A stretch of 64,000 bases of DNA from Spirogloea muscicola (taxonomy: Eukaryota > Streptophyta > Zygnematophyceae > Spirogloeales > Spirogloeaceae). Position 1 is the first letter of the stretch. The number at the start of each line of letters is the position of its first letter. The stretch lies in the NCBI GenBank assembly GCA_009602725.1, contig WELB01000090.1, positions 452,955-516,954 of the forward strand. Reading direction: 5' to 3'. The translations under genes and the position numbers were made by a program. Shown in pieces: positions 42,590 to 50,530 of this stretch. The notes beneath the pieces are model-generated. The model was not told where the DNA came from. It saw nothing but the letters and a program-made list of their open reading frames with translations, and did no database searches.

Positions 42590-43321
42590 GTGGCCCTGGC
42601 TGCGGCAGCCGCCGGAAGGTGGAATGCCTGGCCGGGCAGCACTGAGCCGCCTCCGTTGTGGGATTCTGTCTTTGACGCCGTGCCAGATGGGACGGCGGCG
42701 GCGAGCATCCGGAGCAGCCTGGACCTGCTGGAGAGGCTGGCGAGCCCGGGCAGGGCCGGCGGTGAGCCTGGTAATCGAGCGATCGTGAGACCTGGCAAGG
42801 TGTCACAGGGTTTGGCTGGCAGAAGCAGTAGCCAGCAGGCCAGGACTCACAGAGTGGCAGAGCTCTCATCTGTCACTCCGACGAGGTGGACAATGTCCAG
42901 TGTAGTAACGAGCTGGCTGTCGCTGCTTCAGCTCAGTTAGAACGCCAATCGCGCTGTCGGATGGAATCTTCGTGCGTCGAGATTTAGGCGGTCGTGCTGG
43001 GCACTGTTTTGACAGACGCCTTGGGCTGGCTGTGTGCCAGGCGACAGCCGGCGAAGCCAAGGCGGGGCTGCCTCCATAGCTGAGCAGCTCAGAGACAAAC
43101 TTGAGGAAAGCGATGAGGAGGACGAGGTGAGGCTAGCGCTGGTCAGGCCTGAGCTGACCATCTCGCAGCGGCGAAATATAAGACGGCAGGCTTACTTAGA
43201 TACAGTGGCCAAGCGGAACGATGTACCCCTCTTTCTGGGCATCGGCCTGGCAATTCTACTTCCCCCTGCCGGTATTCTTGGTTACCTCCTCCTTGCTGGC
43301 TTCATTGAAGTGCCCTTTTGA
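42590..43321 (+). CDS. Small conserved membrane protein, 5' end uncertain
   Basis: Two exons are clear: one ending at 42761 (GT donor) and one at 43041-43321, with matching phase. The first shows LWDSVFDAVPDGTAAASIRS and SLDLLERLAS. The second begins Gly/Ser-rich with an acidic ESDEEDEVR stretch, then SQRRNIRRQAYLDTVAKRND, a pattern I associate with uncharacterised plant membrane proteins, and closes with one long hydrophobic segment (VPLFLGIGLAILLPPAGILG, YLLLAGFIEVPF). No in-frame ATG lies just upstream of 42590, so a further 5' exon is likely. Function and membrane are unknown. It converges on the PDF/M41 gene, 266 bases away. Confidence 0.6.
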
Positions 43322-43586
43322 GCCATGGCACGGGTGAAGCGCCAGCAGACCATCCTATGCATGTGTGGCGCACTAGTCGGCGCGGACAGAAGGCTTTGTG
43401 AATGCCTATGAGCGCAGCAAACAGATGAGTGACACGTACAATGTAGATCCTCTGAAACTAGTGTATTTATACTCAGGTGTGCTTACCTGTAAGCCCAGCA
43501 GATCGTACAGTCTGCCAGCACAGGCTCAGTCGTGGGATGATCCATTGGTTATTTTTTTGTTTCTGCAGCTCTATGAGCTGTTAAGG

Positions 43587-46500
43587 TCATCTCAAAGTTC
43601 CGTTTATCTCGGATGTGGAGGCCCGTCCTCTATCCATAAGTAGGCCAGCAATGTTGTGCAGTGCACTCTCATGCTCAACCAACAATTTCTTAGCAACCTG
43701 GGAGGCAACAAAATAACATCTCAGCTCGGTGGGCATGCCCTGCACTTTCAGCTGGAAGTGGTGCTAGAAGGAGCTTTCAAGCAGGTCTTGTTCTTATTGG
43801 TGGCAATAAGAACAAGCTCAAGGGTGAGACCTTCAAAGTGGAACCTCAGCACCAGGCAGTATCGACATACATTGGGGTGGACAGAGAAATATGTAAATTA
43901 CCTGATAAGCTGAGTCGACCAGCTCAAGCATACGGCTTTCGTGAGGCCCGCTGCATTGTAAGGACAAGGGTCGCCTCCAACATGAGTTGGTGGGAGCAGA
44001 CAGAGACCCAGCGTCTTGCCGGTCTCCAGGCATAGGCCTGACTGATGCATGTGTGATGGTCTTGCCGAGATGCACAGAGCCTCCTGGCATGTGGGCTGCC
44101 CAGTCTTTAATGTTGATTGCTGTATCATCATCCTCGACCTGCGCAGCCACTGGAGCTGATGCGGTCCTGACCCAACAATTTGAGCTCTGTAAGGAAGCAG
44201 CAGCAGTAGGCTGAGCCATATGGGACCATGTGAAGAGCGGCTGAGTCCAGCCCGTGCTTTCAGGCGCACTTGCCAAGTTCCGCAGAGCTCCATCCAATTC
44301 GCTGGCCCCGCATGCTCGAGCCTGCTCTACGCGGCAGGCGGCTGCAAACGCTGTCGTTAGAGCAGCCACTGCACCAGCAGCAAGACGACAGTAGAGAGCT
44401 TATTGGGTCCAGGCATACAGCAAAAGCCAGGATGAAGGCGACTCAAAGGGCAGGTAGTGCTACTTGATCTTGCAGGCACTGGCTTGCCGCGCTCCGAGAA
44501 GACAGAGGAGGGCGGTGCGCTTGAAGTAAAGTGAGGCCAATCGAGCCAGTAATGTTCAAGTATAACACAGGAGGAAGTGCACAGAATGAGACTATGTAGA
44601 GCGATTGCCTGAGGCTAAGAGGTCATTTGACCTGGTAGAGCTCACCATTGACAAGGTCGTCCGAGAAGGTGATGCAACCCTCCCTGCTGCCATACTGATC
44701 TGCACGCCCAAACATCAGCTCCTCTGCCGCCTGCAGAGGCAGGTGTTAGTGACTTCCAAATAGAGTGCATGTACCTGAGAATACAACAAGCAGCATCCTA
44801 TGTTGTATACGATAAGGTAGACCTCAAAATACCAGTAGCATTGAGAGGACTATTTGTGTAATGTACGCCCAGTTCCTGACATAAGGTACTATCTAAGAGC
44901 AATTGAGCGGTTTGGCATCATACCAGTCCCCCTAGCCAGACAGCCATTGCTTGCCGAATCCGGTCTTCGAACTGCAGCTCTACTGCCTGCCAGACGATTT
45001 CGGTGCCTCCTGTATAGTCCCGCCAGCCTCTCCTCGTCAAAGACACTCCCTCAACCTAAGCTCCACATACAAATATCATCAGTCATCAGTTACCAGGTCA
45101 TTGATTATGCGGCTCAGTAACCATCAACTACCAACAAAATAACAGGAAAACACTCTCCCACTCCAAGCTTGCATACCCGAGTCAACGGCAACAGGCAGCC
45201 CATGACAGCATGGCCTGCTTCGTGGTATGCTGCAAAGCAAGCGGGGTGGTCCATCCGGGGCCCACAACTGTGTGAACGCCACTGCATCGAAGCTGCCCAC
45301 ACTGCAGCTTCACACTTTTGCGCAACTAGGCTGTGCTTCTGGCACATGTTGCAAGCAGCTGCTTCTTGTGCTCGCAGCTCGTGCCGTAGTGCCCTCCTTG
45401 TCTGCAAGAACAGATGTTGGCAACCTCAGGAGGAAAGTAAGCGAGCACATAGCACTAACGACCACACACCGATTTGCCTCTGTAGTTGGGGCCTCTCTAT
45501 CATTAATACCTTCTCTTGTACTCGGTCCAGAGGAAGGATGCCGGCAATGTAATCAATTCCGCGTCCCAAAGCGCGTGCTTCTCTACCACGAAGCTGCTCT
45601 ACACCACAAGTAGCGACACAGAGCAGGACACTGTTGCTTCATTTGGAGCGAGAAGAGTTTTTTTGGCTGTCTGGCTTCAATGCAGCCGAGACTGCTTCAT
45701 TGTGAAGGAAAACGACATGCAAGCATGAAGTTTGTCACAAGAACGCCATTCATCTTGACCTTCATACTGCAGCAGATGTACTCAGGGATCAAGGGACTAA
45801 CCAGTGACAGGAACCACCTGCCTTTACTATTCCGTGCTGCAACGAGTAAGCATTCTGGTCTTTGTTTGATCAGTAATCCAAAGAACCTGATTAAAGCGCT
45901 TGTAATTCATACATCCAGCTAGCTATTTCCTCATTCATGCAAGCAACTTTCACCACTTTGAATGCAAGAATTTGACGAGCAGCAATAGCGCAAATGCAGT
46001 CACAATTGTTGATTTGCTTGACCACCGTAAGCGAGTCACTCACAGCAATGCCAAGTGACAGGCCTGGCAGGGATGCACAGCTCTCCTTGGCTTGCTTTGG
46101 AGCCCGAGATTGCCAAATGATGTATGGATTAATGAACAGCTGAATCTGCTCTGCTTGAGTCCCCTGCTTGCGCTGAGTTGCTACCACAAAATTCAGTGCC
46201 ACTACTTTGTAAGGCAGGCCGAGTTGGGGCGCTGCAATCGCGTCTAGCTTGGTCCTGATACAAAATAGAAGGGACTTATGGAATTAGCGAACCTGGACTG
46301 TACATCTTGGCACTTAAAAGTACCAAAGTATCACCACTCTAAGTAGCATGTCCTACCCTTTTGCCTAGTCATTGGTGTATGTGAGCACGGATAGATCCTG
46401 ACAAGCGGCTCTTCATATTTTGTCTGGCCATGAGACTCTAAGACAGTCATCTTTCAACAAGGAGTCTAAGTCAACAAGTTGAGACCTTACCTCAATAGTC

Positions 46501-47368
46501 TGGCCTCTAAGGATGATATGACCTGGCTGAGATTTTGTTGAAGAGCGTTGATGCTTGCACAGTCAGCAACTCGTGCTTGCAAGCGAGTGAGAGGGTATAT
46601 CATCTCCCTCTCTACACCTGCATTTATGACACTCGTGCTCCCTTCCGTGTGAAGGGGCATCTGCAGATTTTGAGGACGGGTAAGTCCTCACACAGCCTTG
46701 GCCTTTGCTAAGAGATTGAAGCATGGGATGGCCAAGTTTAAGTAGATAGGCTGCATAGTCGTCTACCGCCCTGTGATGGCTTGCTCATATGGTCATGCCT
46801 TGCCTGTGCTATCCTGTCAGCTCCCAGGTTGCCCAAAGTCTATCAGCAGACTTGGCTCATATTGTTCAAGTATCACATAATTACGCCAGCTTGGACAAGC
46901 AAATCTTACCAGGTGCCGCCACACTGTCCAGAAGTCCTCTTGATGCTGCACCGTTGGGAACTCATGCAGGCTACCGTCTGGCAGCTCAGCTTTGACTATG
47001 CAGCTCCTTGTGCCAGCCGAAGCCTGGGAAGTGACACTCTTTGCAAACTTCTGCATCATGCAAACGCAGAAGAGCTGACATCGTCTTGTTAGCTTGCAAA
47101 CCGTGGACCGCAGCCAGCGAGCTGCGTTCTGACAATGCAAGTGGTTCATCAGGGAGGTGCTGTTTACCTTGTCATTGGAAGTACCAACAATGGCATCATG
47201 GGCGATGCTGGTGCATAAGTTTGCCATCTGTTGTCCTCTTTGCTTAGAGATACATGGCAAACTATTGGTGTCCAGTGTCCCATATCCTTCGAGGCGGCAG
47301 CTGGGGCTGGAGCGGCAAGTGCTTGTGAACAGGCAGGACAAGGCCGAGACAGCGCTTGCTTGTAGCAT
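43587..47368 (-). CDS. Peptide-deformylase-like domain fused to FtsH-type M41 peptidase domain
   Basis: Exons read on minus: 47368-46910, 46603-46491, 46254-46044, a short one from 45766, 45598-45510, 45401-45177, 45055-44924, 44730-44646, one from 44368, one near 43960-43912, and a last ending at 43587. Phases agree over most joins; the exons from 45766 and 44368 and the exon near 43940 have uncertain ends. The N-terminus MLQASAVSALSCLFTSTCRS is transit-peptide-like. The PDF-like part shows LDAIAAPQLGLPYKVVALNF (motif 1, degenerate), ESCASLPG (motif 2, Cys kept), then GREARALGRGIDYIAGILPL where QHExDH (motif 3) is expected, so the HExxH metal site is gone. The M41 part shows YHEAGHAV with HExxH intact, DRIRQAMAVWLGG, AAEELMFG, FSDDLV (third ligand Asp), MLELVDSAYQ and HESALHNIAGLLMDRGRAS, the usual FtsH C-terminus. 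No AAA ATPase module lies anywhere in the gene. Likely organellar. Confidence 0.72.
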
Positions 47369-48000
47369 GCTCAGCGGCTTTGGAGAATGTCAAAGCGAGA
47401 ATGTGCGACTTCTTGACAAGTCACTGCAAAAACAGCCCTCGAGGCTCAAAGAGCTGGGATTTTGGGCGACTAAGTAACGATGGCCCGGGACCCTGTTCCT
47501 TCCTCAGCCTGCATTGCGTGCCTGGTCGCTAGGTGCATCCCCGAGCCTGGGAGCCCCATCAAGAGCGTAAAGGAGCTCGGAGCAGCTCAGCAAGTGCAAC
47601 AGCTACAGCGCTGTCGCAGGCGCTGCCGTGCCGGCGCTTAGAAGTCGTGCACACCGCCCACGTTGCAGCCGCCAGGGCTTCGGCCGCCGACAGAAACGTA
47701 CTTGCCAATCACCGTGGTTTCACTGCACAAGGCTAGTGACGCAGAGAGCAGAGCGTTCGGGAAGGCCAGGCGAAGTGCTGGATAAGGAAGGGTCTGCGCT
47801 TCCCGGCCCCTTCACACCTTATCCATTTCTTCTGGCCCTTTCGAGCTTTGTTCTTATTATTTGGACCGGCCCACCTCTTCCATAGCGACTTTCCACGTCC
47901 GCAGCCATCGCCTCCTATTGACAAATCTTGCTGTTGTCTTTGGCTGGCCTTGAATGGCCAGCCCAACAGGTGCACAACGAGACGGGCCAGATAGCGCAGC
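47369..48000. other. Upstream flank of the PDF/M41 gene
   Basis: No gene recognised. Short plus frames at 47533-47736 and 47628-47885 have no known family. The hairpin-tail repeats resume at about 47930. Confidence 0.35.
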
Positions 48001-50530
48001 AAGATAGAAGTGGCACTCCCAATGGGGGCAAGGGCTGCGAAAAGCCAGCCCTAAAAGAATTGACAAAGGTTTGGAGGGGCCTACAAGCGCTTAGCAGCTA
48101 CAAAGGGGCCTGAAGATGCTACGTCAGAACAGGGGGAGGAGGGATCACTCAGTAGTTACAAGTGAGGAGCCTCAGATCCGACAGACTAGCTGCCGAAAAA
48201 CCATCCCCCTGACAAAAAGACGGAGGCCGCAGCGAGAGCGCGGCCAGCGCGCAGATGCAGGGCGTGAGCCATGGACCGCTGAAGGGATGCTAACAATCTC
48301 ATGCGATACACTTGAGCCCACGAGCCAGCGGCGCTGAAGTCAGCCGGCTCACCGCGCCTGCGGGACACAGCGCGTCACGCAAGTCTGGCAAAAAGCAAGC
48401 GCGGCCACATTGACCGGTGGCTGGGAGAGGCCAGCCCAAAGGAATGCACAAGGTCTGAAGGAGCGGAAGTGCTAAGTACCAAGACATCAGCAAGGGATTG
48501 CAGTGCTCGCAAGGGACGCTCAGTACCCTCTAGTCAAAGTTTCTGCCTTGCACCAGAAAGCTGGACGAGCTCTAGTTTTTGGTAGAAGGGCTTCGTATCT
48601 GACATCTAGTATTCAGGCATCAATTAGCGACCTTTATGTTTTGACCCGTGGTTACTGAGCGGGTCAATCTGCTGAAGGTTATGTATGTCTTCAGATGTGC
48701 TTGCCTTTGTACTTGGCCATTTGGCCTCCGTTTTCAAATACACGAAATGTCTCTAGTCAGAAGATGCAAGTCGGAATAGCTCGCAGGCGGAAAGACATCG
48801 CCCTGACGGAAGCCGGAGGCCGCCGCCAAAGCGCGGCCTGCGCGCAAGTGAACCGCGGAGGCAAGGGACCGCTGCAAAGAGATGACGAAGCGCATCCGGA
48901 AGACTTCAGCGAGGGACCCGGCGACATTGAAGCCAGGCTGCTCGCCCTGCTGCCCGTAGCGGCGGGCCGCTGATCGCCGTGCAAGCAGTGTATTACCCCA
49001 TCGAAGAGAGGGGCTGGCAGAAGCCAGCCAAAAAAGAATGGACAAAATCCAAAGAGCTACAGGAGAATCACTCAGTAACCTCTGCTAAGCAGCCGCAGGT
49101 CGGAGATGCTAGGCTCGTTGAAGTGGGTCCCCTGGCCAGAGCCAGAGGCAGCAGCGAGGGCTCTGCCGGCACGAAGGTGCAACGCCCGGAAGGCGGTGAA
49201 GCAGGTCAAGCCATCTTGTGCCAAAGGCGCCGTGTACGTCGACGGCGAGTGGGACAAACTCGTCTCGCGCCGGGTGATCCGAGTACTCGGATCACCCGTT
49301 CCCTTCGCGCCCGCCGCTTGGCGGACTGCGTAGCCCTCCTCCTACGACGAGCGTTTGGCGCTCCTGGAATCAAAGAAGAAAACAGTCAGTCGTGACAACG
49401 TCGGCGATGAGCCGAGGCCCCCCGCCGAAGAAAGTGCTCGCCCATTGAGAATAGGGGCCGGAAAAGCGAGCCCAAAAACGAATCAACAAAGGCCGAGCGC
49501 GCTGGCAACGAGATCGGCGCGTCGGGTGTGGAGGCGGCTATCCGCCCCAGCAGTCGGAAGGCATGATGCTGGTGTTCTCGAGCGCCACCGTGTAACCGGC
49601 CTCGACAAAGATGCCAAACATTGCGTTCCGCAGCAGGTCGTGTGTTCCTGTCCGCTCCCCGCCCCGTGCGCACCTGAGCATATGAGCTGCCAACGATGCC
49701 GCGTCTGAGCTGCGCTCGCCGCACTCACACCGCTACTTATCAATAAAGCAAGTAATTATTACCAACCTTGGCATTCTCATTGCAAGAGACTACCAACAGG
49801 AGCCCACCGAGTTCCTTTTACCCACAACTCCTCGCTTGCCAGCAACTACGCCACCTTCCTGAGTTGCTGCCGGTTTGCCTACGACCGCTCACACCCAGCC
49901 CAATGTGTCATCAAGGCTGGGTATGCGGTCGCCTGCGCCGCTCGGGCTAAGGAGCTTAAATATGCCGATCATCCACGGGAAGACGAGTTCTTCCTGCTGG
50001 CGATCGACACGCATGGGGCGTTGGGCGCTCGGTGGCTCGAGTTGCTCAACCAGCTCGCCCGCCACGCCATTGTCCGCCGCTTCCATGGGGAGCCGGTGGA
50101 CTTTCCTGCAGCCGTGTCATTAGCGCAGGTGTACCGGCTGCGCTAGGCCGCTTCGGTGCAGAGGTCTATGGCCCGCGCGCTGCACCTGCGCGACGGCAGA
50201 GCCCTCGCTGCTGCCTCTGGCTCTGGTCAAGGGACCCACTTCCAGGAGCAGCCTGGCGTCTCTGACCTGAGGTTGCTTAGCAGGGTCACCGAGTGATTCG
50301 TAGCTGCTCTATTATTTGGTGTGCTTGTTTTTCTTAGCGCTTCCCCTGGCCCCCTTCTCGTACTTCGTTCATTCTTTTTTGGGCTGGCTTTTCCAGCCCC
50401 TATCCTCGATGGGCGCGCCCTTTCTTCTGCTTCCTCGAAGTCTGCTGCCATCACCGCCATGGGCAAGAAGGAGCGGACAGAGCACGGCACTCCCTCGAGG
50501 AGAGTCGCTTCTCCAACGCATGAGCCCCAA
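48001..50530. mobile_element. Several nested LINE C-terminal copies with tails
   Basis: Minus ORF ends lie at about 48180-48310 (VYRMRLLASLQRSM, HLRAGRALAAASV), 48755-48990 (GFNVAGSLAEVFRMRF, SYSDLHLLTRD) and 49070-49260 (SISDLRLLSRGY). A plus type-A tail lies at 48590-48740. The best plus copy is 49880-50295: AGYAVACAARAKELKYADHP, FLLAIDTHGALGARWLELLN, then SLAQVYRLR, ALHLRDGRALAAASGSG and SDLRLLSR, followed by a type-B tail with the perfect hairpin at 50381-50399. The order (RAxxAKxxKYA, then a GALGxxxLxLL block, then SLQR) resembles the region after the RT in other algal and protist LINEs. Confidence 0.6.

Follow-up and report, generated by a model that had tools for sequence, protein, structure and literature searches.

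On the minus strand of the window, the whole 64,000-nucleotide stretch analyzed here, a gene of 11 exons running from 47368 to 43587 encodes a peptide deformylase-like domain followed by an FtsH-type M41 peptidase domain. The two parts very probably form one gene, and on the evidence of DNA alone, through which it is known here, the fusion gene is real and selected. The catalytic motif of the deformylase-like half is lost both in the window (copy A) and in a second copy of the gene elsewhere in the genome (copy B), and the M41 half keeps its zinc-binding motif.

Domain content of the spliced protein

When single ORFs were compared with Pfam, the ORF at 46283-45891 matched Pep_deformylase PF01327 (E = 1.3e-8), the ORF at 45638-45426 with the motif-3 exon matched the same profile weakly (E = 0.099), and the HEAGH ORF at 45425-45114 matched Peptidase_M41 PF01434 over 17 residues, under the curated cut-off (E = 0.0038). 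From single exons the fusion claim is thus thin. The spliced protein matched PF01327 at 1.6e-14 over residues 132-277, corresponding to profile positions 12-155 of 156, with scores of 54.2 bits in copy A and 50.4 in copy B (cut-off 22.8), and PF01434 at 5.4e-13, in two stretches, with scores over the cut-off (49.7 and 47.4 bits; cut-off 29.9). NCBIfam returned a deformylase (4.3e-13) and FtsH_fam (8.8e-10), the latter limited to the M41 part (profile positions 420-492 of 598); all five NCBIfam matches were below their curated cut-offs.

Two features by which an FtsH is recognized, an AAA module before the M41 domain and a membrane anchor, were not found. The spliced protein gave no AAA family match at E ≤ 1 in Pfam and NCBIfam, and no clear membrane segment on a simple hydropathy scale, where the best 19-residue means were 1.4 for copy A and 1.8 for copy B and the maxima of both copies fell inside the deformylase domain. 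The earlier note had proposed one gene with a deformylase-type domain, an M41 domain and no AAA module, and the Pfam matches together with the intact copy B bear this out. An AAA module encoded further upstream was rejected because an in-frame stop precedes the ATG in both copies, 8 codons away. A match of copy B to TEX13 in Pfam (E = 0.13, under the cut-off) was taken as chance. Eight further ORFs, out of the 73 listed, matched no Pfam family at E ≤ 0.1, which also speaks against an upstream AAA module.

Gene model and the junction of the two domains

The exon model was built from GT-AG splice sites and phase continuity. It starts with the ATG at 47368, ends with the TGA at 43587, and holds a single open frame of 608 codons. 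The coordinates, minus strand, exon ends, phases and 108-bp junction intron given in the earlier note were reproduced exactly in the spliced frame (47368-43587).

Exon 1 (47168..47368) contributes the start ATG and a Ser/Ala/Cys-rich, transit-peptide-like N-terminus of 67 codons, and exon 2 (46910..47023) a conserved segment of 38 codons with 94.7% identity to copy B and GT-AG kept; no Pfam match at E ≤ 1 was found in exons 1 and 2 and the start of exon 3. The deformylase-like domain begins in exon 3 (46491..46660) with the helix 1 region, the Pfam match starting at residue 132, and continues in exon 4 (46040..46254) with motif 1 (IAAPQLG) and motif 2 (ESCASLPG). The donor of exon 4 at 46039 is one of two adjacent options.

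The borders of exon 5 (45745..45780), a 36-bp beta-strand exon of the deformylase-like domain, are the least certain and were picked by phase and PF01327 profile score. The exon has a poor donor context and an identity to copy B of only 83.3%, with A/B differences biased to the third position. Its omission lowered the PF01327 score from 58.1 to 51.9 bits, and its start at an acceptor found only in copy A lowered it from 58.1 to 54.5 bits. The sequence beyond the chosen donor is conserved with some third-position bias, and the 3' border is therefore provisional.

Exon 6 (45510..45598), with the motif-3 region and GRGIDY at 45566-45549, ends at 45510 in phase 0, and exon 7 (45177..45401) starts at 45401 in phase 0. 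The two halves meet at intron 6 (45402..45509), 108 bp long, which has GT...AG in both copies, no indel, and 84.3% identity, in line with the other introns (74-89%). Two adjacent genes at this place, the first small, deformylase-like and finishing within exon 6 or beyond it, the second an M41 gene starting at the first Met of exon 7, are improbable. Such an arrangement could draw on this Met, which comes after 18 codons, on the in-frame stop that a retained intron 6 would bring in both copies, and on a promoter inside exons 5-6, which is conceivable on DNA evidence. It is opposed by the splice sites of the phase 0/0 junction, kept in both copies, and by the C-terminus from a retained intron, which would have 27 residues in copy A but 3 in copy B. 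The codons of exon 7 before the Met also look constrained, with three of their four A/B changes synonymous; the signal is weak (p = 0.056), and these codons lean toward being coding.

The statement of the earlier note that the junction leaves no room for a terminator and a promoter is an argument and not proof, and the frame and splice sites preserved in copy B are the stronger evidence for one gene. The green-algal polyadenylation signal TGTAA is missing from the minus strand throughout 43000-48000, and its absence from this whole interval gives no information on the junction.

The M41 half begins in exon 7 with a helical linker, then AYHEAGHAV (HEAGH at 45224-45210), where PF01434 matches. 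It continues in exon 8 (44924..45055) with the M41 core and a C-terminal AVWLGGL, aligned to PF01434 and FtsH, in exon 9 (44646..44730) with AAEELMFG...SDDL, and in exon 10 (43902..44350) with an M41 helix, a fast-evolving linker, and the beginning of the C-terminal helices. Exon 11 (43587..43697) completes these helices, which align to the FtsH C-terminus, and carries the TGA stop.

Copy B and selection on the two domains

A search of the genome (153 Mb, 471 contigs) revealed copy B as a collinear gene on contig C261, with 85.8-86.1% DNA identity to copy A on contig C90. GT-AG was kept at all 10 introns, as was the start ATG, and the open frame encodes 615 amino acids, extending 5 codons beyond the stop of copy A. 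With 10 introns and the whole frame kept in a second copy, a chance arrangement appears very unlikely. Other duplicated loci in the genome showed a slightly higher identity of 87.1-89.7% in all 12 pairs tested, and the A/B divergence, being near theirs, roughly fits an old genome multiplication. For an assembly or contamination artefact on a chimeric contig no supporting point was found; the collinear gene on two contigs and the A/B identity just below that of the other duplicated loci both stand against it, and its probability is negligible.

The two indels between the coding sequences of the copies (3 bases in exon 3 and 9 bases in exon 4) are both multiples of three, compared with 3 of the 32 indels in introns (Fisher p = 0.018). 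The density of indels was 1.1/kb in coding sequence versus 16.4/kb in introns.

To judge from the substitutions, both halves of the gene are under purifying selection. Between copies A and B, dN/dS was 0.23 for the deformylase exons 3-6 and 0.34 for exons 7-11, with single-exon values of 0.65 (exon 1), 0.40 (exon 2), 0.15 (exon 4), 0.14 (exon 7), 0.06 (exon 8), 0.00 with no amino-acid change (exon 9), 0.61 (exon 10) and 0.43 (exon 11). Within exon 10, dN/dS was 0.70 in the first 23 codons, 0.75 in the linker and 0.17 in the last 27 codons. Changes were synonymous more often than expected in the deformylase exons (26 of 47, p = 4e-6) and in the M41 core of exons 7-9 (16 of 21, p = 5e-7); the excess was borderline in exons 10-11 (20 of 57, p = 0.053), and constraint was not significant in exons 1-2 (9 of 27, p = 0.15).

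Queried with PF01327, with the M41 half and with the deformylase half, the genome yielded no third copy of the fusion gene, whereas PsaD and the two ordinary deformylases are each present in three; the search with the M41 half also gave three weak matches to FtsH (E about 0.2). Together with the lost motif 3 and the dN/dS values of exons 1 and 10, the lack of a third copy would suit a gene decaying into a pseudogene and surviving by chance in two of three homeologous copies. This account is rated at least as improbable as that of two adjacent genes. Neither copy has a frameshift or premature stop in any of the 11 exons despite about 14% divergence and the many intron indels, and synonymous changes are strongly over-represented in the deformylase exons and in the M41 core.

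Active-site residues of the two domains

The deformylase half aligned over its full length with deformylases of known structure, including chloroplast and mitochondrial ones. Deformylases have a Gln in motif 1, a metal-binding Cys in motif 2, and in motif 3 the sequence HExxH with two metal-binding His and the catalytic Glu. The motif 1 Gln172 (46226-46224) and the motif 2 Cys221 (46079-46077) were kept in both copies, motif 2 reading ESCAS instead of EGCLS (ESCASLPG in copy A and ESCASLAG in copy B). Motif 3 aligned as GRGIDY in copy A and GRAFDY in copy B with QHEFDH or QHEIDH of the solved deformylases, and thus the two metal-binding His of QHExDH and its catalytic Glu are absent from both copies. 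With HExxH replaced by RGIDY or RAFDY, the domain should hold no metal and be inactive, a predicted pseudo-enzyme. Ordinary deformylases are encoded elsewhere in the genome by two genes, each in three copies by PF01327 matches; the first has QHEFDH and EGCLS in all three copies, and the second has QHECDH in both copies examined, two of the three.

In the alignment to FtsH, the M41 half retained AYHEAGHAV, with HEAGH at residues 335-339, LGGLAAEELMFG, SDDL and the C-terminal helices. Asp419 (44658-44656) is presumed to be the third zinc ligand by its position in one pairwise alignment, which pairs AAEELMFG...SDDL with VSEELIFG...SSDI from locus L001, an FtsH encoded in the same genome. The suggestion that both domains act on proteins is not supported for the deformylase half as an enzyme, HExxH being lost there in both copies.

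Proposed function

The most economical reading would be a reader of N-termini joined to a zinc peptidase. According to this reading, to which somewhat less than an even chance is given, one gene yields a soluble protein of 608 residues that combines a dead deformylase as the reader with an ATP-independent organellar M41 peptidase. The transit-peptide-like N-terminus would direct the protein into an organelle, the former deformylase pocket with its kept Gln and Cys would dock N-termini, for example of peptides ending in Met or formyl-Met, and the M41 domain would cleave without ATP. Because no unfoldase is present, the substrates should be short or unfolded chains. Selection on a deformylase domain whose catalytic core is gone is as expected of a domain that only binds. 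The further claim that this represents a novel type of organellar protease independent of ATP, with a dead deformylase that picks substrates by their Met or formyl-Met start in place of ATP-driven unfolding, is doubtful. The idea of N-terminal quality control in the earlier note could stand only if modified, with the dead domain as a putative reader in place of an active deformylase.

M41 domains form a ring in FtsH, and the same fusion may instead provide a regulatory or structural partner, with its M41 domain docked into hexamers of FtsH while the dead deformylase brings a client or the ribosome, a role like the one that inactive FtsHi subunits may have in plants. This role is rather unlikely but deserves weight. 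Catalysis may be impaired by the large fast-evolving insert in exon 10, and plant and algal FtsH-like proteins presumed catalytically dead, as presented in PMC8643629, set a precedent. The intact zinc ligands, the third of them in exon 9, which is free of amino-acid changes between the copies, point the other way. Assembly into an FtsH ring without cleavage is not much weaker than the reading as a substrate reader with an active peptidase.

Searches of viral contigs, GTDB genomes and phages found no relatives; the search covered only prokaryotes, viruses and phages, so the absence of an orthologue there means little.

Relation to known systems

The fusion protein shares with FtsH (TIGR01241, PF01434) the aligned segments HEAGH, LGG.AAEELMFG and SDDL and the C-terminal helices, and differs in that no AAA module and no clear membrane segment were found, in an extra insert before SDDL, in the exon 10 linker of roughly 100 residues, and in the joining of M41 to a deformylase-like domain. 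With PDF1A and PDF1B (PF01327) it shares the profile positions 12-155 of 156, the motif 1 Gln and the motif 2 Cys; in contrast to them, the HExxH of motif 3 is lost and the domain is fused upstream of M41.

FtsHi proteins carry an AAA module. Arabidopsis and Chlamydomonas FtsH-like proteins without the zinc motif are described in PMC8643629 as presumably catalytically dead. These pseudo-proteases, as that article portrays them, offer a precedent for organellar proteolysis keeping an enzyme domain that is presumably dead; in FtsHi the zinc motif of M41 is lost, whereas in the fusion protein the M41 site is kept, AAA is absent, and the dead part is the deformylase.

Arabidopsis VIRESCENT3 (VIR3) is described as a putative chloroplast metalloprotease without an ATP-binding domain, in which 235HEAGH239 is required for function and for whose protease activity no in vitro assay was possible in that study (PMC9166295). 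By this description it resembles the fusion protein in having HEAGH without an ATP-binding domain in a plastid setting. In contrast to the fusion protein, VIR3 has transmembrane domains, and the account of it in PMC9166295 that was compared mentions no deformylase-like domain. If confirmed, the fusion protein would be another M41 domain without an ATPase, besides VIR3, and would show that in nature a deformylase has been converted to a module without catalysis.

Among the open-access literature matches listed, no title pointed to a fusion of a deformylase with FtsH or M41, and no title relevant to inactive or deformylase-like proteins was found in the open-access literature. Peptide deformylase and M41 are old, well-studied families, and to our knowledge no described protein has both domains. 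The fusion is undescribed as far as the literature searches reach, and the dead deformylase is a notable twist in it. The host is likely close to land plants, so the fusion should be traceable among a limited number of sequenced relatives.

Genome setting and flanking DNA

The green-alga setting assumed in the earlier note fits the presence of PsaD, which occurs in the genome in three copies, as do some other genes. Many genes, among them those for deformylases, FtsH and PsaD, were found in two or three copies with 87-90% identity. By their sequences, these multi-copy genes point to a triplicated genome, and a genome triplication is mentioned for Spirogloea muscicola in PMC9065682 and PMC11547041. 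PsaD gives its best scores against entries that are apparently mostly from land plants; taken with the genes in three copies and the published triplication, this suggests a zygnematophycean host such as Spirogloea muscicola.

Intron 8 of copy B (in C261:1-10000) is 368 bases long versus 193 in copy A, a difference of 175 bases. The main insertion in it spans 158 bases; it duplicates the first bases of exon 9 along with intron sequence close by, and it possibly gives a decoy acceptor.

Downstream of the fusion gene, a convergent ORF on the plus strand (43013-43318) with a hydrophobic end stops about 270 bases from the stop of the fusion gene. It had no Pfam match; in its last part the A/B differences fall mostly at one codon position, and for this reason it is probably coding.

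Upstream of the gene, the region 48006-50434 consists of dispersed repeats, parts of which have 74-94% identity to dozens of sites on other contigs (at least 40 candidates scored), the best block among the matches listed being about 550 bases long (49877-50430). The region also holds a pair of inverted repeats (49113-49189 and 50173-50249) and probably represents a mobile element.
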